A stretch of 44,726 nucleotides of DNA from Acidisphaera sp. S103 (GTDB lineage: Bacteria; Pseudomonadota; Alphaproteobacteria; Acetobacterales; Acetobacteraceae). Below the pieces are notes generated by a model that was not told the DNA's origin, ran no database searches, and saw only the letters and a program-made list of their open reading frames with translations. The translations under genes were made by a program, and so were the position numbers. This document shows, piece after piece, positions 32,759 through 44,726 of the stretch; position 1 is the stretch's first letter, and the number at the start of each line of letters is the position of its first letter. Location: the NCBI RefSeq assembly GCF_009765975.1, contig NZ_LMUJ01000031.1, positions 113,554 to 158,279 of the forward strand. Reading direction: 5' to 3'.

Positions 32759-33250
32759 ATGCGTTTTTCAGCGGCCCTCGGCGACGGTGCCCATGGCGGA
32801 CAGGACAATTGGTTGCTGTGCCGCGCCGGATCGTTCCTGTGTGCCCTGCGGCTGGCGGACGTGGTCGAAATCATGCGGCTGCTGCCCAGCGAACCGATCG
32901 CGGACGCGCCAACATTCGTCCGCGGCCTGTCGATCATTCGCGGCATGCCGACGCCGGTCGTCGATATCGCGCTTTTGCTCAGCGGACGCACGGCGTCGCT
33001 CCGGCGGCTGATCACAGTCAAATCCGGCACCCGCATCGTTGCCCTGGCAGTCGACAGCGTACTGGGCGTCAGGTCGATCGAGACCGAAGGGACAGCCGAA
33101 TCCTTGCCGCCACTGCTGCGGGAAGCCGCCGGCGACATGGTCTCGGCGATCGGGCGCCTCGACGCCGATCTGCTGCTGTTCCTCAATACCGCCTGCATCG
33201 TTCCGGAGGCACTGTTCGAGCGTCTCGACGGCGCCGAGGCCGTCGCATGA
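32759..33250 (+). CDS. cheW: CheW-like coupling protein (WspB/D-like), first copy
   Basis: This 163-residue protein is a CheW domain that links receptors to the CheA kinase. The order of segments fits: WLLCRAGSFLCALRLADVVEIMR, the RGLSIIRGMPTPVVDIALLL loop with the conserved Arg-Gly and Pro-Val-Asp pieces, and ALAVDSVLGVRSIE. The ATG at 32759 is the best placed start, with GGGA five bases upstream. An in-frame start 42 bases earlier is possible. It is the first gene of the seven-gene operon and overlaps cheR by four bases (ATGA). Confidence 0.82.
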   Translation: MRFSAALGDGAHGGQDNWLLCRAGSFLCALRLADVVEIMRLLPSEPIADAPTFVRGLSIIRGMPTPVVDIALLLSGRTASLRRLITVKSGTRIVALAVDSVLGVRSIETEGTAESLPPLLREAAGDMVSAIGRLDADLLLFLNTACIVPEALFERLDGAEAVA

Positions 33251-34752
33251 ACGGCTTGATCGACCACGATGAACTGGAACGGTTTCGAACCACGATTGCG
33301 GTCCGGATCGGCCTGCGGTTCGACGACGGCAAACTTGGTTTCCTCGGCAACGTGTTGCGGCGCCGGCTGAGCGATCTTGGGCAAACGAGCGACGCTTACC
33401 TCGATGCTCTTGAGCAAAGGCCGTCGGCCGCCGAAATCAGCACCCTCGCCGGCGAACTCACGGTCTGTGAAACTTATTTCTTTCGCAACGGCGAGCAATT
33501 CCGGGCCTTGGCGGAGGTCGCCTTGCCGGAGCGCATGCGTGCCCGCAGGACGCCAGGCGAGTTGCGCCTGCTTTCGGCCGGCTGTGCGTCGGGCGAAGAG
33601 GCGTATTCGCTGGCGATCGTTGCGCGGGAGACGATTACCGATCCCGCCTGGGATATCCGGGTACGGGCGATCGACATCAATCCGATTGCGTTGGCGAAAG
33701 CCGCCGCCGCGCGCTACTCCCCCTGGGCGCTCCGGGATACGCCGCTCAGCCAGCAGCAAAAATGGTTTCGTCCGGACGGGCGGGACATGCGACTGGACGA
33801 AACGGTGCGTCGCTCGGTGCGGATCGAGGCCGGAAACCTGGTCAGGGATGACCCCGGTTTGTGGCAGCCCGCGAGCTACGACGTGATCTTCTGCCGTAAT
33901 GTACTGATGTACTTCGCACCGGAGCAGATGCGTCTCGCGATCGCTCGGATCGCGCGTTCGCTGGCACCCGGCGGCTTCCTTTTTCTTGGGCACGCGGAGA
34001 CGCTGCATGGCGTCTCGGACGCATTCTACCTGCACCACACGCACAGTACCTTCTATTACCAGCTTCGGGAAGGCGGCCGGTCCGTGAGCCCGCCCGCCAT
34101 GTCCGGATTCGAGATCGCAGCGGAACCGCCGCGGGCGCCGATCGCCGCGTTGGGTGAAACCTGGTTCGAAACCATCCGATCGGCCACCGAACGCGTCGCG
34201 GCGCTGGTTCCGCCCGAACCGGTGGAAACCATCCCGAGACCCGGGGTTGCCTGGGACCCGGCCCCGGTGCTCGATCTTCTGCGCAGGGAGCGTTTTGCAG
34301 ATGCGCTCGACACCCTGCGCGGCCGGCCGCCGGCGTCGGTCGATGATCGCGACACGTTGTTGCTCGAAGCGGCCTTGCTGGCGCACAGCGGCCAACTGCC
34401 GGCGGCAGAGGTCGCCTGCCGGCGGCTGATCGCAATCGACGCGGCGAATGCCGGCGCCCATTATGTGTTGGCGCTTTGCCGCGAGCACGCCGGCGACCTG
34501 GACGGTGCCGGAGAGTCCGATCGAACCGCCGTCTGGCTTGACCCCGCCTTTGCCATGCCCCGTTTGCATCTGGGCCTTCTCGCTCGGCGCGCCGGCGATC
34601 CGAAGGCGGCGCTACGCGAACTGAAACACGCCCTGATCCTGCTGAAACGTGAGGAGACATCGCGGATTCTGCTGTTCGGTGGCGGTTTCAACCGTGAAGC
34701 GCTGGTGGCGCTGTGCAACTCGGCGCGACAGGAATGCGAGGGCCGGCCATGA
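33247..34752 (+). CDS. cheR: CheR methyltransferase with C-terminal TPR region (WspC-like)
   Basis: This 501-residue protein methylates receptor glutamates using S-adenosylmethionine. It has the CheR N-terminal helical domain (residues 1-70), the TYFFR motif (76-80), the SAM-binding [14 protein letters not shown] (111-124), and the [10 protein letters not shown] motif near 218. After about residue 330 come TPR-like helices: [40 protein letters not shown] and [20 protein letters not shown]. That TPR tail is the mark of the WspC class rather than of flagellar CheR. The ATG at 33247 overlaps the cheW stop, and its own end overlaps the next cheW. Confidence 0.92.
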
Positions 34753-35303
34753 GCGAGATTGCTGTGACGGATGGCTTGCCGCGCGCAGCGGCACGGGCGG
34801 CGGTGTTGCGTGCCGCGTTCGACCGTTCCTTCGCCGAACCATCCCGCCTCGATATGAACCTCATGGAGGATCTGCTGATGGTTCGGGCCGGAGACGACGT
34901 CTTCGCCATTCGCTTGTCCGACATCGCGGGGCTTTACGCCGACAAGAAGATAACGCGGGTGCCGGGCGGCGATCCGGCGTTGCTTGGTATCGCCGGTTTC
35001 CGCGGCACGATCCAGCCGGTCTATGGCCTGACCACCCTGCTTGGCCGCCCGGCCGAGGCTGCGCCGCGCTGGCTGGTGATCGCGGCGGCGGCGCCGATCG
35101 CGCTCGCGTTCGATGGTTTCGACGGTCATCTGCGTGTGGCGTCGGAGACGATCCGGCCGACCGACGCGAGCGCGAAAGAGCTGCCCTTCGCCCGGGATTT
35201 CGTCCCCGTTCAACAGTTTGTCCGACCCATCCTGCACCTGCCGTCGATCCTCGACGCGATCAGAACGCAGCGGCAAACGGTCGCGCCAGGAGAGAATCAA
35301 TGA
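34749..35303 (+). CDS. cheW: CheW-like coupling protein (WspD-like), second copy
   Basis: This is a second CheW domain, 184 residues long, with an N-terminal extension of about 40 residues ([20 protein letters not shown]) as in WspD. The core is [40 protein letters not shown] and the [16 protein letters not shown] strand. Two different CheW proteins flanking cheR is the Wsp arrangement, where one may couple a subset of receptors. The ATG at 34749 overlaps the cheR stop, and the MCP start overlaps its own stop. Confidence 0.85.
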
Positions 35304-36778
35304 AGATGTTTGCGAATTGGACGGTCGGGAGAAGGCTGATCGCCGGTTTTGGCCTGGCTGGACTCACACTGCTGCTGGTTGTCTTCGTCTCCTATCGAAA
35401 CATCGTCAGCCTGATCGAGAATGACGCCCTGGTGGAACACAGCCACCAGGTTCGGGTCGAACTCGCCGATCTGTTGTCGGAGTTGAAGGATGCCGAGACC
35501 GGACAACGCGGCTATCTGCTCACCGGCATCGACAGCTATCTCGCGCCTTATGAAGCCGCGTTGCCGGCGATCAAGGTCACGTTCGCCAAGGTGGTCGAAT
35601 CCACTGCCGACAATCCGCTGCAGAAACCACGCATGGCGAGACTGTCGCAACTGATCGACGCCAAACTGGCGGAACTGAAGAAGACGATCGAGTTGCGGCG
35701 CACCCAGGATATGGGGTCCGCCCTCAAGGTCGTGCTGGACAATACGGGCAAGATCGTCATGGACCAGATCCGAGAGCTGATCGGTCAGGCGGATCAGGAA
35801 GCCGTGGATCTGCTGAAGCGGCGGGCCGAGGAGGCGCGCGCCAGTGCCGACATGACCACGACGATCATCATCTGGGGTGGGCTGCTGGGTGCCATCGTGG
35901 TGGCTATAATCGGCTGGTTCATCTCCCGCTCGCTGTCCCAGCAGATCGGTTCGGCTGTCCTGCAGATCCAAAGCTCTTCGGCGGAACTGCAGATTGCCGC
36001 CAGTCAGCAGGCATCCGGCGCGAAGGAACAATCGTCGGCGATGACGGAGATCAGCACGACGATCAGCGAATTGCTGGCGACCACGCGGCAGATCGCCGAA
36101 AGCGCCCGCCGGGTGGCCCGGAATGCCGAACAAACGGCGGTTTCCGCCAGCTCGGGCCATGGGACGGTCGATTTGACGCATGAATCGATCGCGGGCATCC
36201 GGCGGCAGGTCGATCAGATTGTCGCCCACATGCTGGAACTGGGGAAGAAATCCCAGGAAATCGGCGCCGTCGTCGAAATCGTGTCGGAACTGGCCGAACA
36301 GACCAATATCCTGGCCATCAACGCGACGATCGAAGCGGCCGGCGCAGGGGACAGCGGCAAGCGGTTCGCGGTGGTCGCGGATGAGATCCGTAAACTCGCC
36401 GATCGGGTCGCCGGTTCGGCCAAGGAAATCCGCACGCTGATCGAAGACGTCCGCAGCGCGGTGAATACCACGGTCATGGCCACCGAAACCGGATCGAAAG
36501 CGGTCGATGCCGGGTCTCGCCAGTTTGGCGACGTGGCGTCGGCGTTCAAGCAGATCGCCGGGCTCGTTTCGACCACGACCGAGGCGTCACGCGAGATCGA
36601 GCTTTCGACCACGCAGCAATCGACCGCCGTCGAGCAGGTCAACATCGCGATTTCCAGCGTCGCCCAGGCCTCGGCGGAGATGGAGACGAGTGCGGGCCAG
36701 ACATCGAAAACAGCCACCCAACTGGCCGAATTGCCCCGCGATCTGCTGCGCATCATTCAGCCGCATATGGCGGCCTAA
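35300..36778 (+). CDS. Methyl-accepting chemoreceptor with CHASE3-like sensor (WspA-like)
   Basis: This 492-residue inner-membrane receptor has TM1 near residues 15-31 and TM2 near 188-208, with a periplasmic domain of about 155 residues. The segment [20 protein letters not shown] (65-84) is a CHASE3 mark. The signalling tip, [20 protein letters not shown] (326-345), then [17 protein letters not shown], is standard and would bind CheA and CheW. No HAMP domain can be made out: after TM2 the chain runs straight into the coiled coil. The C-terminus lacks the NWETF-type tether for flagellar CheR, so the TPR of the local CheR may replace it. It starts inside the preceding stop. Confidence 0.9.
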
Positions 36779-36781
36779 AGC

Positions 36782-38818
36782 GTGGCCGCCGATCCCTACC
36801 GCTATTTCCGGCTGGAAGCGCGCGAACTTTTGGACCAGTGCGCGCAGACCGTGCTCGAGCTGGAGAAAGGCGGCCCGGCGGCAACGCTGGTACAGCAGTT
36901 GCTGCGCCTGGTGCATACGCTCAAAGGAGCGGCGCGAGTTGTCAGACAGGCTGGTATCGCCGATGGGGCCCACGCGATCGAGGACGCACTGGCGCCGCTT
37001 CGTGACGCGACGGCCGGTGTCACGCGTGACGCGCTTGGTCCGATCCTCGATCATTTGGACAGCATCGACCACCAACTGCGCATGCTCTCACCGGTCGAAC
37101 CGGTGGCATCCGCCGCGGCCAATTCGCTTCCGGACGAACCCTGGCGGGCCGTCCGGGCCGACGTGGTCGAGATGGACATGGTTCTCGACGGGGTGGCGGA
37201 GACCCATGGGTTGTTGACCCGGCTGCGCGATGCCGAGCGCGGGCTGGAACAGGCCCAGCGGCTGGCGGAGGTGCTGAAGGCCCAGTTGGCGGTCCAGCGG
37301 CATCACGGGGGTGCGTCGGAACGGCTGCTCGCGATCGCCGACGAATTGCAACGCAAGGTCGGAACGGTCGAACGTGGGCTGGGCTCGACCGTCGACCAGA
37401 TGGATCGGGAGTTGCAGCAACTGCGTGACGCGGCCGAACGGCTGCGCCTGGTGCCGGCGGGAAGCCTGTTCACCGTGCTGGAGCGGACCGCGCTCGACGC
37501 GGCCCGGACCTTGGGCAAGCAGGTGAAATTCCGCGCCGAAGGCGACGAGATGCGGCTCGATTCGCACATGCTTGGCGCGATACAGAGCGCACTGATCCAA
37601 CTGATCCGCAACGCCGTGGCGCATGGAATCGAGGCCGCCGACGTGCGGCGGCGTGCCGGCAAGCCGGAGATCGGCGATGTCGGCATCAGCATCTCGCGCC
37701 GGGGCCGGCGGGTGGTGTTCGAATGCCGCGACGACGGGGGTGGCCTCGATCTCGAGTCCATCCGGCGCGTCGCGTCACGGCGTGGCGTATCGGGCCCCGA
37801 TGTCCGGCACGCCGATGCCTCCGCCCTTGTTCAGTTGCTGCTTCGGGGCGGCATCACGACGTCGGAGACGGTGACCGAGGTGTCCGGGCGCGGAATCGGG
37901 CTCGACGTCGTGCGTGCCGCGATCGAACGGCTTGGCGGCGAGGTGGTGGTGCGCACCGAACGCGGCTGGGGAACGGTCTTTGAACTGGTGGTGCCGTCGT
38001 CGCTCGCGGCGCTTGAAGTGTTGATCGTGGAGGCGGGCGGCAGCGGCGCGATCGCGATCCCGCTCGATGCGGTCCGTGGCACGGTTCGGATCGGCGCCGG
38101 GGATATCTTGCCGTCGGCACCCGGCACCGCGGTGCTGTACGGGCAGCAGGCGGTTACCTTCATGGCGCTGTCAACCATTCTGGGGGGCGCACATCAGTCG
38201 GTTCGGGACCGTTCGAGCATGGTCCTTCTGGCTGGAGCCGACGGCCTGGCCGCGATCGGCGTCGATCGGCTGCTGGGAACGGCCAACCTGGTCGTTCGGC
38301 CGTTGCCGGACAACCTGCATGTGAGCGCGGTCGTCGCCGGCGTGGCGTTCGATGCCGAGGGGAATCCCCAATTGATCCTCGATCCGGACGGTATCGTCTC
38401 CGCGGTTCGGCACAGCGCACCGGGTTCGTCCGACATCGTGCCGGCGACGGCACGGACACGGATCCTGGTGATCGACGATTCGCTGACGACCCGGATGCTG
38501 GAGCAAAGCATTCTCGAATCGGCAGGCTATGAGGTCGATGTCGCGCTGTCGGCGGAGGAAGGGCTGAAAGCCGCGCATCGCACGCGTTATGCGCTGTTCC
38601 TGGTCGACGTCGAGATGCCGGGGATGGACGGCTTCACCTTCGTCGAACAGGTGCGTGCGGACCCGGCGCTGCACGAAATTCCCGCGATCCTGGTGACGTC
38701 CCGTGCGGCACCGGAGGACCTGCAACGTGGCCGTGCCGTTGGCAGTCAGGGATATATGATCAAGAGCGAGTTCGACCAGTCCAGGCTTCTCGCGTTGATC
38801 AAGCCGCTGGTGAGATAG
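36782..38818 (+). CDS. cheA: Hybrid CheA histidine kinase with receiver domain (WspE-like)
   Basis: This 678-residue kinase contains an HPt domain with phospho-histidine His45 in LVHTLKGAARVV, a linker, the ATPase with N-box LIRNAVAHGIE, G1 box CRDDGGGLD and G2 box GRGIGLDVV, then a CheW-like regulatory domain (about 400-530), and a C-terminal receiver with Asp609 in LFLVDVEMPGMDGF. The fused receiver is the WspE type. The protein lacks a clear CheY-binding P2 domain. It starts with GTG four bases after the MCP stop, with no clear ribosome-binding site, so coupling is likely. The receiver may act as phosphate sink or as the relay to the RRR kinase. Confidence 0.92.
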   Translation: MAADPYRYFRLEARELLDQCAQTVLELEKGGPAATLVQQLLRLVHTLKGAARVVRQAGIADGAHAIEDALAPLRDATAGVTRDALGPILDHLDSIDHQLRMLSPVEPVASAAANSLPDEPWRAVRADVVEMDMVLDGVAETHGLLTRLRDAERGLEQAQRLAEVLKAQLAVQRHHGGASERLLAIADELQRKVGTVERGLGSTVDQMDRELQQLRDAAERLRLVPAGSLFTVLERTALDAARTLGKQVKFRAEGDEMRLDSHMLGAIQSALIQLIRNAVAHGIEAADVRRRAGKPEIGDVGISISRRGRRVVFECRDDGGGLDLESIRRVASRRGVSGPDVRHADASALVQLLLRGGITTSETVTEVSGRGIGLDVVRAAIERLGGEVVVRTERGWGTVFELVVPSSLAALEVLIVEAGGSGAIAIPLDAVRGTVRIGAGDILPSAPGTAVLYGQQAVTFMALSTILGGAHQSVRDRSSMVLLAGADGLAAIGVDRLLGTANLVVRPLPDNLHVSAVVAGVAFDAEGNPQLILDPDGIVSAVRHSAPGSSDIVPATARTRILVIDDSLTTRMLEQSILESAGYEVDVALSAEEGLKAAHRTRYALFLVDVEMPGMDGFTFVEQVRADPALHEIPAILVTSRAAPEDLQRGRAVGSQGYMIKSEFDQSRLLALIKPLVR

Positions 38819-38821
38819 GCG

Positions 38822-39907
38822 ATGCCGAAGATCCGCGTTCTTGTCGTCGAAGATTCCATGACGGTGCGTATGCGCCTGATGGAAATCCTGTCCGGCGATC
38901 CCGAAATCGAGCTGGTTGGGGCGGCACCGGATGGCAAGCGCGCCATCGAATTGTGCTTGTTGCATCGGCCCGATCTGATCACCATGGATATGATGCTGCC
39001 GGTGATGACCGGTCTTGCCGCGACCGAATACATCATGGCGCATTGTCCCACGCCCATTCTGATTGTTTCGGCATCGATCAATCGTGGCGAGTTGTTCCGG
39101 ACTTATGACGCACTGGCCGCCGGGGCGGTCGACGTGCTGGAAAAGCCGACAGGGACCGAGGCCGACGGCATCTGGGAACGTCGCTTCATCGTGACGGTGA
39201 AGCTGGTCTCGCGAATCCGTATCATTCCGCGTCTGTATGCACGTCCGGTGGACCCGCCCTTGACGACGATCGTGGCACGCGCGCCGTTGTTGCCGCTGCC
39301 GCGCGGGTGCCGGATGGACCGGCGGTTCGATTTGGTCGCGATCGGCGCATCGACCGGCGGCCCGAGTGCGATCGTCGAGATATTGCAGGCGTTACCAGCC
39401 GATTTTCGGCTGCCGATCGTGTTCGTTCTGCATATCAATGAACCGTTCGGGTCCGCCTTCGCCGATTGGCTCGACGCGCAGATCGGCCGGCCGGTGGCCC
39501 ATGCAAGGCAGGGGGACCCGGTGGCGTCGGCCGCCGGGCGGGTCGTCATGGCCCCGCCTGGCCGACACCTCACGGTGCGCGACGGCCGGTTTCACCTCAC
39601 CGCCGATCCCGAACGCCATTCGTGCCGGCCTTCGGTGGATGTGCTGTTTGAGTCTGTATCCCAATGTTATGGCCCATCGGTTGTCGCGTGCCTTCTGACG
39701 GGCATGGGGCGGGACGGTGCATCCGGCCTGCTGAAACTGCGCGAGGCCGGCGCCCTGACCATCGCGCAGGATGAGGCGACATCGACCATCTATGGCATGC
39801 CGCGCGAGGCGGCCCTGCTTGGTGCCGCTGTCGAGGTACTCCCACTGCAGGAGATCGCCGGCCGGCTTATGTCGCTCCAGCCGTCCGGATCGGAGATGCC
39901 GCGATGA
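38822..39907 (+). CDS. cheB: Chemotaxis methylesterase CheB (WspF-like)
   Basis: This 361-residue response regulator removes methyl groups from receptor glutamates. The receiver domain has Asp56 in DLITMDMMLPVMTG, and the esterase domain shows its triad: Ser177 in IGASTGGPSA, the histidine in VLHINEPF and the aspartate in LTGMGRDGASG. The second part also has the SAGRVVMAPPGRHL-type segment ending at the Asp-Gly loop. The usual LQH-M/I-PP motif reads VLHINEPF. It begins four bases after the cheA stop and overlaps the next gene by four bases (ATGA), so it belongs to the same operon. Confidence 0.92.
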   Translation: MPKIRVLVVEDSMTVRMRLMEILSGDPEIELVGAAPDGKRAIELCLLHRPDLITMDMMLPVMTGLAATEYIMAHCPTPILIVSASINRGELFRTYDALAAGAVDVLEKPTGTEADGIWERRFIVTVKLVSRIRIIPRLYARPVDPPLTTIVARAPLLPLPRGCRMDRRFDLVAIGASTGGPSAIVEILQALPADFRLPIVFVLHINEPFGSAFADWLDAQIGRPVAHARQGDPVASAAGRVVMAPPGRHLTVRDGRFHLTADPERHSCRPSVDVLFESVSQCYGPSVVACLLTGMGRDGASGLLKLREAGALTIAQDEATSTIYGMPREAALLGAAVEVLPLQEIAGRLMSLQPSGSEMPR

Positions 39908-41880
39908 TCGGCCCGGTTCTTGTCGTCGATGACAGCCTGACGGTTCGGATGGATCTTTTGGAGATCCTGGAAGCGGCCGGCCTGCAAGCGCAAGCCTGCG
40001 AGACCGTGGCCGCCGCGCGGCAGGCGCTCGCCCGGGAGCAGTTCGCGCTGGTTATCCTCGATGTCCTGTTGCCGGATGGCGACGGCATCGAACTGCTCAA
40101 GGAGATTCGCGCTATGCCGTCGGCCGCCGGTACAGCGGTCATGCTGCTGTCGACCGAAGTGGAAATCCGCGATCGCATTCACGGCCTGACGACGGGGGCC
40201 GACGACTATGTCGGCAAACCCTATGAGCCTGTCTACCTGGTCGCGCGGGCGCGTGAACTGGTCCGCGGCAGCGGCGACGAAACGGCGTCCGCGCCGCTGA
40301 CCATTCTGCTGATCGACGACAGCATCACCTTCCGCGAGGCACTGAAGGACATTTTGGAAGGCGAAGGATATCGCGTGCTGGTCACCGGCACCGGTGAGGA
40401 CGGGTTGCGGGTGGCCGCCGACCAGCGACCGGCGGCGATCATCGTCGATGGTCAACTGCCCGGCATCGACGGTGCGACGGTCATCCGGCGCGTCCGGCTC
40501 GACGCGGCGTTGCGCCGCTTGCCCTGCCTGCTGCTGACCGGGTCGGAGGACCACAGCGCGGAAGTCCGTATCCTCGATGCCGGCGCCGACGCATTCGTGC
40601 GGAAGGAGGCAGACGTCGATGTCATCCTCGCCCGATTGAACGCCATGCTGCGGAGCGCCGGCACGCAAAGCGTGGGTCCGGGCACGCCGAGCCTGCTTGG
40701 ACCGAAGAAGATCCTGGCGGTCGACGACAGCGAAACCTATCTGCAGGAGCTTGCCGTTGCGTTGCGCGCGGACGGCTATGAACTGGTGTTGGCCCGCTCC
40801 GGCGAGGAGGCGCTCGACCTGCTCGCCGTGCAGCAGGTCGATTGTTTGTTGCTCGATCTGATGATGCCGGGGATCGGCGGCCTGGAAACCTGCCGGCGGG
40901 TGAAAAGCGTGCCGGTGACACGCGATATTCCCATCGTCATGCTGACGGCGCTGGAAGATCGCACGGCGATGATCGAGGGGCTGAGTTCGGGTGCCGACGA
41001 TTACGTCGCCAAATCGGCCGAATTCGATCTGCTGCGCGCACGCGTGCTCGCCCAGATACGGCGCAAGCAGTTCGCGGATGAGAACCGCATGATGCGTGAG
41101 CAATTGCTGCTGACGCAGTTCGAAGCGGCCGAAGGGCGGGCGGCCCGGCAACTCGCGGAGATGCGGGCGGCGCAACTGGTGGCGGAGAGCGCGGCACGCC
41201 GGCGGGTGGAGGGGGAGATGCATGCCCTTATCCATGTCGCGTCGCACGACCTGAAGGCGCCGCTGCTGGCGATCATGCATTTGGCGCAATGGATTGGCGA
41301 AGACATCGGGCCGGCGATGAGCCCTGAGACGGTCGAACATCTGGGGCTGCTGCGCAGGCGGGTGGCTCGGCTGCAGATGCTGATGGATGGATTGTTGGCC
41401 TATCTGCATGTCGGCAGCGTCGATTGTTTCGTCGAGGACGTCGACATCGCCGAGTTGGTGAACGACATCGTGGCCATGCTGGCGCCGTCGCCGGGCTTCG
41501 TCGTGACCTACGACGGCAGCCTGACGATGCTGCGCACCTATCGCAGGCCGATTCGTGTGATCCTGGAAAACCTGATCGGCAACGCGTTGAAACACCATGA
41601 CCGAGCCGAAGGCCGCGTTGTCATTTTGGCGAGACTGGCCGCCGGTGTGGCGGAATTCCGTGTTAGCGACGATGGACCCGGCATATCGCCGCGGTTCCAT
41701 GATCGCATTTTCGTCATCTTCCAGACCCTGGCGGGTCGTGATGACCTGGAATCGTGTGGTATTGGCCTGGCCATGGTCAAGAAGATCGTCGAAAGCCATG
41801 GCGGCCATGTGCAGGTGGAAAGCGCGCCACCCGCACGCGGCACGACGTTCGTCTTCACGTGGCAGGTGACCGCGTCATGA
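39904..41880 (+). CDS. Histidine kinase with three tandem receiver domains (REC-REC-REC-HisKA-HATPase)
   Basis: This 658-residue cytosolic protein has no membrane helix. Receivers lie at about 4-120, 133-250 and 268-388, with phospho-acceptor aspartates Asp53, Asp182 and Asp318 and acidic pairs at the start of each (DDS). A coiled stretch (390-440) leads to the HisKA helix with His448 in VASHDLKAPL, then the N-box ENLIGNALKHH, G1 SDDGPGIS and G2 ESCGIGLAMVKKI. It is thus a kinase controlled by up to three phosphorylation inputs and takes the place of the WspR GGDEF protein. No DNA-binding or GGDEF domain is present. The target of its kinase is unknown. It ends the operon and abuts nhaA. Confidence 0.9.
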   Translation: MIGPVLVVDDSLTVRMDLLEILEAAGLQAQACETVAAARQALAREQFALVILDVLLPDGDGIELLKEIRAMPSAAGTAVMLLSTEVEIRDRIHGLTTGADDYVGKPYEPVYLVARARELVRGSGDETASAPLTILLIDDSITFREALKDILEGEGYRVLVTGTGEDGLRVAADQRPAAIIVDGQLPGIDGATVIRRVRLDAALRRLPCLLLTGSEDHSAEVRILDAGADAFVRKEADVDVILARLNAMLRSAGTQSVGPGTPSLLGPKKILAVDDSETYLQELAVALRADGYELVLARSGEEALDLLAVQQVDCLLLDLMMPGIGGLETCRRVKSVPVTRDIPIVMLTALEDRTAMIEGLSSGADDYVAKSAEFDLLRARVLAQIRRKQFADENRMMREQLLLTQFEAAEGRAARQLAEMRAAQLVAESAARRRVEGEMHALIHVASHDLKAPLLAIMHLAQWIGEDIGPAMSPETVEHLGLLRRRVARLQMLMDGLLAYLHVGSVDCFVEDVDIAELVNDIVAMLAPSPGFVVTYDGSLTMLRTYRRPIRVILENLIGNALKHHDRAEGRVVILARLAAGVAEFRVSDDGPGISPRFHDRIFVIFQTLAGRDDLESCGIGLAMVKKIVESHGGHVQVESAPPARGTTFVFTWQVTAS

Positions 41881-43077
41881 GGGACGTCCATGGCCCTGTC
41901 GGCGGCGTCGATCGCCTCTGGCAGGGGTGTCAGTTCCGTTCGCCGGCGCTGTAAACGCCAGCCATACCAGACCCAATACGGCGGAAATCACCGACCCGGT
42001 GAACACGGCAAGCTTCACCTCCGGCTGGATGGGCGTGCCGTGGAAGCCGAGGTCACCGATGAACAGGCTCATGGTAAAGCCGATGCCGCACAGCAGCGCC
42101 GCGCCAAACAGCCGCGGCCAGGTCAGCCCGGCCGGCATCCGAACCCAGCCAAGCCGGACCGACAGCCAGATGGCGCCGAACACGCCGATGGGTTTGCCGG
42201 CGACCAGGCCCACTGCGACACCCAGCATGACCGGTGTGCCGAAGTCCGCCGGCGAAAGTCCGCCCAGCCGTAATCCGGCGTTCGCCAGTCCGAACAGGGG
42301 CAAGACCATCCAGGTGACCCAATGTCCCAGGCCGGCTTCCATCCGGTCACCGGTGTCGTCCATCGGCACCACGAAGGCCAGGGCCACACCGGCGATGGTG
42401 GGATGGACGCCCGATCGCAGCACGCACGCCCATAGCAGCACGCCGCCAACCGCGTAGGCCCAGACCGACCGCACACCGGCTCGATTCAGGCCGTATAAAA
42501 CAGCACAGACCATGCAGGCCGCCAGCAGTGCCGGCAGATCCAGCCTCGCGGTGTAGAACAGGGCGATCACCACGATCGCGCCCAGGTCGTCGATGATCGC
42601 CAGCGCCGTCAGGAACAGTTTCAACGCGATCGGCACGCGCCGGCCCAGGACCGACAAAGCCGCCAGGGCAAACGCGATATCTGTCGCGACCGGAACCGCC
42701 CAACCGCGCAGCCGGGCCGGGTCCGCGTGGTTGAAACCGGCGAAGATCAGCGCCGGCACCACCATGCCGCCCAGCGCGGCGAATCCTGGCGCGGCGATCT
42801 GCCGGAACGACGACAATTGGCCGTCGGTCATCTCCCGCCGTATCTCCAGGCCTACGGTCAGGAAGAACAACACCATCAGCCCGTCGTTGACCCAGCCGTC
42901 CACCGGCAGGATCCACAACGGCGTCGCCAGCAGCCGGAAATACTGGTCGGCGCCGGACGCGTTCGACCAGACCAGGGCCACGGCCGCGGCGATGATCAGC
43001 GCCAATCCGCCGGCGGTCTGGCTGCGCAGGAATGCCAGCAGCGCGGCGTAGCGCCGGTTGGGGGGCGTTGCCGTCAT
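41875..43077 (-). CDS. nhaA: Na+/H+ antiporter NhaA
   Basis: This 400-residue protein has about twelve membrane helices and the ion-binding aspartates of NhaA: VATDIAFALAALS and ALAIIDDLGAIVVIALFY. The N-terminal SQTAGGLALIIAAAVALVW and FLTVGLEIRREMTDGQL are also typical. It exports sodium in exchange for protons and controls pH and salt. The ATG at 43077 has AGAGGG five bases upstream. Its last six bases overlap the end of the RRR kinase gene tail to tail in TCATGA, with no terminator between. The polar C-terminus, rich in Arg and Gly, is somewhat longer than in E. coli. Confidence 0.94.
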   Translation of the reverse strand: MTATPPNRRYAALLAFLRSQTAGGLALIIAAAVALVWSNASGADQYFRLLATPLWILPVDGWVNDGLMVLFFLTVGLEIRREMTDGQLSSFRQIAAPGFAALGGMVVPALIFAGFNHADPARLRGWAVPVATDIAFALAALSVLGRRVPIALKLFLTALAIIDDLGAIVVIALFYTARLDLPALLAACMVCAVLYGLNRAGVRSVWAYAVGGVLLWACVLRSGVHPTIAGVALAFVVPMDDTGDRMEAGLGHWVTWMVLPLFGLANAGLRLGGLSPADFGTPVMLGVAVGLVAGKPIGVFGAIWLSVRLGWVRMPAGLTWPRLFGAALLCGIGFTMSLFIGDLGFHGTPIQPEVKLAVFTGSVISAVLGLVWLAFTAPANGTDTPARGDRRRRQGHGRPS

Positions 43078-43138
43078 GCGGTCCCTCTGACTCGCCCGTT
43101 CGTTGATGATCCGACCTGTTCCATGCCACCATCGGGCA

Positions 43139-43543
43139 ATGAACCTGTACGCAGCCATACGAGCCATCCCGCACGACGCCGTGGTCAACATACTCGACCT
43201 GATCGCGTTCGTCCTGATCACCCCCGAACTCATCGGTGAGGCGCGGCTGAACCTGCTGACGTCATGGATCAAGCGTATCCTGGGTGGCCAGAACCGGACC
43301 CTGGTGATCGTGGCATCGTTGTTCATCGCCGGCCGGATCGCAGGCTATTTCGGCATCCCGCGCGGCTATGGCCATTTCCTGTTCCTGGCGGGGGTCGCGT
43401 TCCTGATCGCGACGCTGTTCACGCTGATCAACAACTACGTCAAAACCACGCCGTCCCGTCAGGTGATGCTGCTGCTCGGCGCGGCGCTGTTCGTCTGTGC
43501 TCGTATGATCGGAATTTTCGCCGCCCTTCAGAACGCGGAATGA
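43139..43543 (+). CDS. Small membrane protein of unknown function
   Basis: This 134-residue protein has about three or four hydrophobic segments: NILDLIAFVLITPELIG, TLVIVASLFIAGRIAGY, FLFLAGVAFLIATLFTLI and VMLLLGAALFVCARMIGIF. No known domain was recognised. It is divergent from nhaA with 61 bases between the two start codons, so the two share a control region. No strong ribosome-binding site precedes the ATG. The protein may have a membrane-associated accessory role, but nothing in the sequence proves it. Confidence 0.65.
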   Translation: MNLYAAIRAIPHDAVVNILDLIAFVLITPELIGEARLNLLTSWIKRILGGQNRTLVIVASLFIAGRIAGYFGIPRGYGHFLFLAGVAFLIATLFTLINNYVKTTPSRQVMLLLGAALFVCARMIGIFAALQNAE

Positions 43544-43572
43544 CCCCCCGATGGCCGGGATCGCGCGCATGG

Positions 43573-43602
43573 TGTAGCAACCTTGCTGCACCCGCGAAGG
43601 TT
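43573..43602 (+). promoter_or_regulatory. Two mutually exclusive pairings in the zwf leader
   Basis: TGTAGCAA at 43573-43580 can pair with TTGCTGCA at 43583-43590, and AACCTT at 43579-43584 can pair with AAGGTT at 43597-43602. The two pairings share bases, so only one can form. They end nine bases before the AGGAGGG (43611-43617) of zwf. This could control translation, but stems are short. Confidence 0.3.
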
Positions 43603-43624
43603 ATCTGACCAGGAGGGCTGATGG

Positions 43625-44726
43625 ATGCCGAAGATCATTCCCGTTGCCATTTTCGACTGCGTCGTGTTCGGCGCGACCGGCGACCTGACACTTCGAAAAC
43701 TGCTTCCCGCGCTGTATTACCGCTTCCGCGACGGCCAAATGCCTGCCGAATCCCGCGTCGTCGGCGCCGCCCGCTCCAAATTGACGGACGAGGATTTTCG
43801 CGGCCGAGCGACCAAGGCGCTGGAACAGCACGTCGCCCGCGCCGATCAGGACCCGGAGATCATGCACCGCTTCCTGGCGCAACTGCACTACGTCTCGATC
43901 GACGCCACCGAACCCGATGCCGATTGGAGCCGCTTTCGCGACCTGCTGGACCCGGACCGCATACGGGTTTTCTACCTCGCCACCTCGCCGGACCTGTATG
44001 GGCCCGTCTGCCAGGCGCTGGCCACCAGCGGGCTGGTCACCGAACAGTCCCGCGTCGTGCTGGAAAAGCCGATCGGCCACGACCTCGCCTCGGCCAAGGT
44101 GATCATCGATGAGGTCGGAAAAGTGTTCACCGAGGCACGGACCTTCCGCATCGACCACTATCTGGGCAAGGAGACAGTGCAGAACCTGATGGCACTGCGC
44201 TTCGCCAACACGATCTTCGAGCGTTTGTGGACCGCCGACGTGATCGACCACGTGCAGATCACGGTAGCCGAAACGGTCGGGCTGGAGGGACGCGGCGGCT
44301 ACTACGATAAATCCGGTGCCATGCGCGACATGGTGCAGAACCACATGCTGCAACTGCTGTGCCTGATCGCCATGGACCCGCCGGTGTCGCTGGATGCCGA
44401 CCGCGTGCGCGACGAGAAGCTGAAAGTGCTGCGCGCCCTGAAACCCATGGAGCCGCATGAGGTCGCCACCCTGACGGTGCGCGGCCAATACACCCAGGGT
44501 GCCATCGACGGCAAACCGGTGCCCGGTTACCTGACGGACCTCGGTTCGGACGACGCCTCCGGCACCGAGAGCTTCGTCGCGCTGAAGGCCGAGGTGCGCA
44601 CATGGCGCTGGGCCGGCGTGCCGTTCTACCTGCGCACCGGCAAGCGGCTGCCGTCAAAAGTGTCCGAAATCGTCATCCAGTTCCGCGCCCCGCCGTTCTC
44701 CATCTTCCCGCCCGAGGCGGCGGAAT
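43625..44726 (+). CDS. zwf: Glucose-6-phosphate 1-dehydrogenase, 3'-truncated by window edge
   Basis: This gene gives the first 367 residues of an enzyme that usually has about 490. It oxidises glucose-6-phosphate to 6-phosphogluconolactone with NADP, the entry to the pentose phosphate and Entner-Doudoroff routes. Visible are the nucleotide-binding VFGATGDLTLRKLLPALYY, the FYLATSPDLYG segment, EKPIGHDLASA and the active-site RIDHYLGKETVQNLMALRFAN with its Asp-His pair. The later FYLRTGKRL is also in place. The ATG at 43625 is eight bases from AGGAGGG, better spaced than the ATG at 43621 in another frame. The frame runs to the last base of the window. Confidence 0.95.
   Translation, partial: MPKIIPVAIFDCVVFGATGDLTLRKLLPALYYRFRDGQMPAESRVVGAARSKLTDEDFRGRATKALEQHVARADQDPEIMHRFLAQLHYVSIDATEPDADWSRFRDLLDPDRIRVFYLATSPDLYGPVCQALATSGLVTEQSRVVLEKPIGHDLASAKVIIDEVGKVFTEARTFRIDHYLGKETVQNLMALRFANTIFERLWTADVIDHVQITVAETVGLEGRGGYYDKSGAMRDMVQNHMLQLLCLIAMDPPVSLDADRVRDEKLKVLRALKPMEPHEVATLTVRGQYTQGAIDGKPVPGYLTDLGSDDASGTESFVALKAEVRTWRWAGVPFYLRTGKRLPSKVSEIVIQFRAPPFSIFPPEAAE

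Follow-up and report, generated by a model that had tools for sequence, protein, structure and literature searches.

Within a 44,726-nt stretch of Acidisphaera sp. S103 DNA (contig NZ_LMUJ01000031.1; hereafter the window), a seven-gene chemosensory operon ends in a protein with three receiver domains and a histidine kinase (REC-REC-REC-HK). Sequence comparison indicates that this last protein is a natural hybrid: its receivers are those of the operon's own lineage, and its kinase module appears to have been replaced by one of the PAS-HK/bacteriophytochrome type. Our whole account is that the operon belongs to the alternative cellular function (ACF) systems, that its kinase was replaced, that the single-domain Rcp1-like regulator of such operons (S-type) is absent, and that the signal is redirected to another regulator encoded on contig C81 of the same genome (G000); we put the probability of this account at about 0.7. 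The parts supported by sequence are the anatomy of the operon, the chimera, the missing regulator and a single Rcp1-like candidate partner. An earlier sequence-only reading of this DNA had described the operon; the comparisons add that the kinase half looks foreign to the operon lineage and that the often-adjacent regulator is absent.

Scanning named genomes with the last protein left 79 loci; 26 of them (L009-L034) match over the receivers, and the other 53 are more distant or partial matches. The kinase is readable in 25 of the 26, L027 ending inside the gene. We call a protein canonical if its kinase module is of the operon's own lineage and hybrid if it has the window-type kinase; P-numbers denote database proteins. 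The receivers of the window protein (residues 1-392) are 49-74% identical to those of the 26 other loci, and its kinase (residues 435-655) is 20-33% identical to those of the 25 comparable loci, 20 of which are canonical and 41-89% identical to one another. Against L009 and L032, identity is 27-30% in the kinase and, domain by domain, 73-81% in the receivers. The same kinase is 57-58% and 49% identical to two kinases encoded at C81, and 61% and 54% identical to two kinases of a genus mate, G004. Consistent with this, the window groups with nine database hybrids in a single clade (support 100/100) among PAS-HK and phytochrome-type kinases in a kinase tree of 67 rows, and forcing the hybrids together with the canonical kinases costs 242 log units and is rejected by the approximately unbiased (AU) test (p = 4e-6). 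In the receiver tree (44 rows), the hybrids are nested in the canonical proteins as sister to canonical P0029 (99/93). The best receiver tree implies four changes of kinase state; its well-supported branches alone force two.

The window is not the only case. Five more loci keep the receivers with other kinases (L014, L022/L023 and L030/L034; 22-25% identity between the three types), and these three further swaps lie in Sphingomonas, Polyangiaceae and a pseudomonadote. Outside the pairs L022/L023 and L030/L034, the best identity of a swapped kinase to any fetched open reading frame (ORF) is 46%, with flanks of up to 10 kb. We considered a neighbouring gene as the source of these kinases and rejected it: the nine best matches shown for each of the five loci contain no ORF of its own locus save the gene itself. 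The last gene of L030/L034 has a fourth Pfam receiver match.

In every swapped protein, the alignment places the join in a helix-like stretch after REC3. Counted from an RRKQF-type motif, the H-box His follows at 54, 61 or 75 residues in all 20 canonical loci, always 5 modulo 7; in the database proteins, where 6 of 120 were skipped, the distance is 54 in 86 of 87 canonical proteins and 64 in one. Of 27 hybrids, 26 (the window among them) have 58 and one has 32; the remaining swaps have 75 (L030/L034), 69 (L014) and 77 (L022/L023). Whole-heptad steps would suit control via a coiled coil, as in the LOV kinase YF1, for which passages of PMC6798134 describe coiled-coil control and a linker whose length can invert the response. 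We speculate that the 4-residue change of linker in the hybrids alters the sign of control.

To follow the old partner, we used the 19 canonical loci for which downstream sequence is available (L019 breaks off within the gene). In 9 of these, a single-domain Rcp1-like regulator begins no more than 100 bases beyond the canonical gene, and in a tenth at 3.2 kb. The five swapped loci have no such regulator downstream (in L030 only 953 bases are available), and the window has none either. When whole genomes were searched with the regulator of L032, the score reached 100 bits or more in 19 of the 19 other canonical genomes (weakest L028, 44% identity) and in 2 of 6 swapped genomes, L030 (157 bits) and L034 (160 bits). 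Nothing was found in L014 at E 1e-15, and the best match in G000 itself reached 77 bits at 37% identity, the next 55.

G000, a draft of 8.37 Mb in 116 contigs, encodes three new-type kinases: that of the window and a pair at C81; the next kinase is at 29%. Between the two C81 kinases lies an Rcp1-like regulator (G000:C81:133526-133927), in the order PAS-HK, regulator, ETR1-like HK. It is the genome's one Rcp1-like protein, at 245 bits versus 65 for the runner-up under profile A1, a profile that itself includes this regulator and close relatives of it. In the region flanking the phospho-accepting His, identity of the hybrid is 56% to the C81 PAS-HK (C81_PAS) and 15-34% to the operon kinases, canonical and swapped. 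The best structure matches of both C81-type and S-type regulators include Rcp1, RcpA and a bacteriophytochrome regulator. The locus covering these genes (L133:8335-12992) encodes the PAS-HK, the regulator and the kinase with an ethylene-receptor (ETR1-like) N-terminal domain, and a divergent REC-HK-REC gene adjoins it.

Linkage in relatives was judged from equal-sized contigs, taken as the same contig, among the matches listed. There, the 92 kinases closest to the hybrid's module (mostly PAS-HKs) and 120 C81-type regulators share 17 contig sizes, compared with 0-3 in shifted controls. The 28 hybrids share two sizes with regulators (14971 and 20754) and two usable sizes with kinases (20754 and 22428); 40 shifts gave 2 matches (regulators) and 4 matches (kinases) in all. 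The equal sizes pair P0005 with P0229, P0016 with P0165 and P0232, and P0007 with P0211. Canonical proteins share 0 of 91 contig sizes, a weak control that possibly reflects other organisms. The size shared by P0098 and P0210, 1660, leaves no room for both genes, and this pair was not counted. These equal sizes suggest that a C81-type regulator lies near the hybrid gene in relatives.

Several observations weigh against loss of the old partner and against the C81 regulator as the new one. The regulator is missing downstream in 9 of the 19 canonical loci themselves (in L017 and L031, only about 1 kb of downstream sequence is available). L030 and L034 have a different kinase and still encode strong Rcp1-like regulators (12 and 10 matches), so swap and regulator loss are not always tied. 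Absence is less sure for L022 (63 bits, best 150 of 200 candidates scored) and L023 (62 bits, best 150 of 181). Fisher's p of 0.0012 takes genomes as independent, and the tree gives 2-4 independent pairs, too few for significance. Because the assembly is 97% complete, the regulator could be missing from the G000 data. Equal contig sizes are indirect evidence, and the longer hybrid contigs (P0003, P0018 and P0026) share none. The kinases nearest to the hybrid in the kinase tree are P0122/P0183, not C81_PAS, and in G000 the C81 genes are on a different contig from the operon.

The alternative that survives best accepts the swap and gives the kinase another partner: a different receiver in the genome, the protein's own receivers or the REC of CheA, as a phosphorelay or a sink. 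In its favour, 41 places in the genome match the Rcp1 profile at E ≤ 1e-6, and the RodK kinase of Myxococcus xanthus phosphorylates its own third REC (recounted in passages of PMC3868531). Against it, relatives of the kinase are encoded with a C81-type regulator, as the 17 equal contig sizes among the matches listed, versus 0-3 after shifting, indicate, and we consider it unlikely.

A different question is what the operon serves. Its seven ORFs, 32759-41880 on the forward strand, are cheW, cheR-TPR, cheW, mcp (with CHASE3), cheA-REC, cheB and REC-REC-REC-HK, joined at -4, -4, -4, +3, +3 and -4 bases (four 4-base overlaps and two 3-base gaps), so that the order and tight spacing noted in the sequence-only reading hold. 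So does its statement that the window has no cheY: an Rcp1-like receiver profile (E ≤ 1e-6) matches only CheA and the last gene. In an unrooted CheA tree, a branch (100/99) separates the window and 22 related loci from 11 references; L012, L016, L026 and L027 were left out, and the references include E. coli, Bacillus, the C92 and C11 CheAs of G000, and L146 and L148, labelled Wsp-type by gene order. The operon thus falls outside the flagellar references; a CheA placement among flagellar systems would have counted against the earlier reading, which held that the pathway is probably not for swimming. The earlier label 'Wsp-like' stands for the parts and fails for the ancestry: because the same branch leaves the Wsp-type CheAs opposite, this is not a Wsp system. 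By sequence we class the operon as a non-flagellar, ACF-like chemosensory system, its CheA being distinct from the flagellar and Wsp-type sequences that served as references. Among ACF traits, a multidomain output regulator is present (three receivers and a kinase); as to a cheR-TPR gene, the CheR match is strong, and TPR families match only below Pfam cut-offs. The output is a kinase rather than a WspR diguanylate cyclase; a Cupriavidus locus that we label Wsp-type (the record is unannotated) has a GGEEF gene after cheB. A flagellar-class CheA with cheY was seen neither in the CheA tree nor in the profile search of the window.

Control of flagellar chemotaxis by this operon is accordingly improbable. 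The genome does encode the flagellar protein FlhA (on C110; C63 has a further, partial match). However, CheW domains occur on two contigs besides the operon's own (C11 and C92), marking two other che clusters, and the C92 CheA is F5-like, with two CheW domains, a trait of F5-class CheA according to passages of PMC10782961. The operon CheA itself does not fall among the flagellar references, and the only CheY-like profile matches in the window are those in CheA and the last gene.

Still less probable is an ordinary kinase-ended ACF operon with an unchanged partner and a merely fast-diverging kinase. The unchanged gene order and receivers would fit it. Yet the kinase is nearer to another family than to any operon kinase compared, the AU test rejects one clade, and the receivers of the same protein are no faster. 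P0029-P0038 have receivers 74-90% identical to the window's and canonical kinases at 29-33%, and intermediates are lacking: among the 120 matches listed, none has a kinase identity of 40-60%. Kinase identity is at least 60% in 29 (the window's own, 24 full-length proteins, and P0026-P0028 and P0098, which are shorter, P0026 being aligned over 45 residues only) and at most 40% in the other 91 (28-34% in those printed).

The draft state of the genome, in its 116 contigs, might invite the idea of an assembly chimera, which is already refuted, because the 24 database proteins share the hybrid at 76-82% identity along its full length (one, named Rhodopila sp., at 80%) and the spacing of 58 recurs in 26 of the 27 hybrids measured, counting that of the window. 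The G+C content at third codon positions is 0.80 in the receiver part and 0.77 in the kinase part, and does not mark the junction.

Further details of the window proteins are as follows. CheR residues 379-466 match TPR_17, TPR_11, TPR_19 and others only below Pfam cut-offs. In the chemoreceptor (35300-36778), Pfam found no HAMP match between the membrane helix and the signalling domain; its CHASE3 domain points to an extracytoplasmic signal. No P2 match was found in CheA with Pfam. For the last protein, Pfam gives three REC domains and a HATPase, with a weak HisKA match (E 0.0013), no PAS match and no photosensory domain; the H-box reads SHDLKAP, with the His at residue 448. The receiver aspartates named in the sequence-only reading (residues 53, 182 and 318) are confirmed by alignment. 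Those of REC1 and REC2 are kept in all 27 proteins compared, and that of REC3 is lost (Ala or Glu) in L025, L026, L030 and L034. There was no GGDEF match among the 20 window proteins scanned with Pfam; that scan was not a GGDEF search of all ORFs in the window. Downstream, nhaA runs in the opposite direction towards the operon, and the two ends overlap by 6 bases. The surroundings (1-32404 and 41875-44488) encode an amidase, an aminotransferase, a PEP-utilising enzyme, a ketopantoate reductase-like protein, an aldo/keto reductase and NhaA; the proteins scanned, from part of the ORFs, look like ordinary metabolism, and no functional tie to the operon was seen among them.

Table 1. Features of the operon and of its last protein (positions in the whole window), and loci with further kinase exchanges
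Feature	Position	Strand	Basis
cheW1, coupling protein	32759..33250	+	Pfam CheW E 4e-16
cheR with C-terminal TPR-like region (WspC type)	33247..34752	+	Pfam CheR E 8e-43
cheW2	34749..35303	+	Pfam CheW E 4e-12
Chemoreceptor mcp: CHASE3 sensor and MCPsignal	35300..36778	+	Pfam
cheA: Hpt, HATPase, CheW, C-terminal REC	36782..38818	+	Pfam; CheA tree
cheB: REC and CheB_methylest	38822..39907	+	Pfam; two NCBIfam CheB models above cut-off
REC-REC-REC-histidine kinase, chimeric output protein	39904..41880	+	Pfam, segment identities, trees
REC1 (Asp53)	39904..40278	+	Identity 74% to L009, 73% to L032; Asp in 27/27 rows
REC2 (Asp182)	40288..40689	+	Identity 75% to L009 and L032; Asp in 27/27 rows
REC3 (Asp318)	40702..41079	+	Identity 81% to L009 and L032; Asp in 23/27 rows
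Coiled-coil linker (coiled coil read from sequence), swap junction inside	41080..41202	+	Alignment; spacing to H-box His
Replaced kinase module (DHp and ATPase), His448	41203..41877	+	Identities, kinase tree, AU test
Further kinase exchanges	L014:10001-12019; L022:3555-5627 and L023:9731-12082; L030:10506-13721 and L034:10394-13579

The gene order is not due to chance, because all seven genes stand in this order in 14 of the 26 receiver-matching loci (L009, L013, L014, L015, L018, L019, L020, L023, L024, L025, L026, L028, L032 and L033); a search of this kind across genomes had been proposed in the earlier reading and bears it out. Fewer genes are visible where the contig ends (L010-L012, L016, L022 and L027), one or both cheW fall below 55 bits in L017, L021, L029 and L031, and L030 and L034 have a different layout, with CheA immediately before the last gene and no CheB match. 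Relatives in other alphaproteobacteria, which the earlier reading had allowed for, do exist, and the spread is wider: records with the operon are named Hyphomicrobiales, Sphingomonas, Azospirillum, Myxococcales, Polyangiaceae, Planctomycetota (partial loci only), Opitutia, Terriglobia, Dactylosporangium and others, most being metagenome assemblies. Closer to home, with rows resting on three scored candidates per genome, the last protein was found at E ≤ 1e-100 only in its own genome among 397 genomes of the family (and in none of another draw of 328) and at E ≤ 1e-80 only in its own among 385 of the class. In 33 genomes of the genus at 1e-60, the receivers matched in its own genome only, G004 matching by the kinase only. 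Searching plasmids with the receivers brought up 10 records at 27-37% identity, none of them a true relative. Two canonical operons run on past the Rcp1-like regulator into a further, receiver-bearing histidine kinase (L009:12453-14021 and L010:7111-9069), a REC-HK-REC protein with a PAS domain as well in L010, which suggests longer relays.

Among described systems, Che3 of Rhodospirillum centenum, which controls cyst formation, is a close parallel in the passages of PMC3868531. Its eight genes include two cheW, cheR, mcp, cheB and cheA-REC, with a second hybrid kinase bearing N-terminal receivers and a single-domain regulator, and the receiver-kinase architecture is alike in the window. There, CheA3 phosphorylates REC1 of CheS3 and the CheS3 kinase acts on CheY3, as shown biochemically. 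This precedent supports as probable the earlier proposal that CheA phosphate reaches the REC-REC-REC kinase and then a further regulator. By description rather than alignment, CheS3 is a REC-REC-PAS-HWE kinase whose REC2 has no Asp, whereas the window protein has three Asp receivers, no PAS and a kinase of the PAS-HK/phytochrome type rather than HWE, with a weak HisKA match. The R. centenum cluster also has cheY3, and the window operon has no regulator gene by profile search outside CheA and the last gene. In Burkholderia cenocepacia, a receiver-histidine kinase output, WspH (WspHRR), replaces WspR, and a separate regulator, RowR (Bcen2424_1436), was found through suppressors (passages of PMC8552884 and PMC4324302). 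The wspH gene is apparently transcribed separately, upstream. Replacement of the WspR cyclase by a kinase (PMC4324302) is the nearest printed idea we found; there a GGDEF output gave way to a kinase, and here one kinase to another. Clusters with cheR-TPR likewise have multidomain regulators, with HisKA-HATPase in about 40% of response regulator sequences, and the abstract and passages of that study (PMC3447774) report no exchange of the kinase inside a single conserved operon. The hybrid kinase has bacteriophytochrome kinases among its best matches, yet the window protein has no photosensory domain.

The novelty that the sequence-only reading saw in the wiring does not hold, since kinase-ended chemosensory operons (CheS3, WspH/WspHRR and about 40% of cheR-TPR cluster regulators) are already in print. 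What appears new is the repeated kinase-for-kinase exchange behind constant receivers, with three of the four swapped lineages giving no strong match to the old regulator. No published exchange of this kind inside a chemosensory operon was found in titles, abstract openings and passages, most subscription papers being beyond reach.

We infer every phosphotransfer step, and the identity of the partner, in the following scheme. The CHASE3 receptor and two CheW proteins would control CheA-REC, with CheR-TPR and CheB adapting the receptor. By the R. centenum precedent, CheA phosphate would pass to the receivers of the last protein, most likely REC1 and/or REC2, since their Asp is present in 27 of 27 proteins versus 23 of 27 for REC3. 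The receivers would then steer the kinase through the coiled-coil linker, at which the original module was probably exchanged for a PAS-HK/bacteriophytochrome-type kinase, the often-adjoining Rcp1-like regulator being absent. The new kinase probably phosphorylates the C81 regulator, so that chemosensory input would join the PAS-HK/ETR1-like pathway. With evenly divided confidence, we propose more generally that the receiver array is a socket for interchangeable kinases, used in four lineages (on the best tree) at one linker; here the chemoreceptor signal would have moved to the Rcp1-like regulator of PAS-/ETR1-type kinases, the old one being absent, and the 4-residue-longer linker may flip the sign of control.

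That a sensor can be exchanged ahead of a retained kinase is textbook knowledge. Here we find the converse, in which the input is kept and the kinase exchanged, in a gene order conserved across phyla and with an old partner that can be traced by its presence or absence. The swapped lineages offer natural comparisons of how pathways rewire and of what a receiver-kinase linker must retain, and the candidate partner named here is open to one phosphotransfer experiment. Replacement of the kinase probably rewires the pathway to a different regulator.

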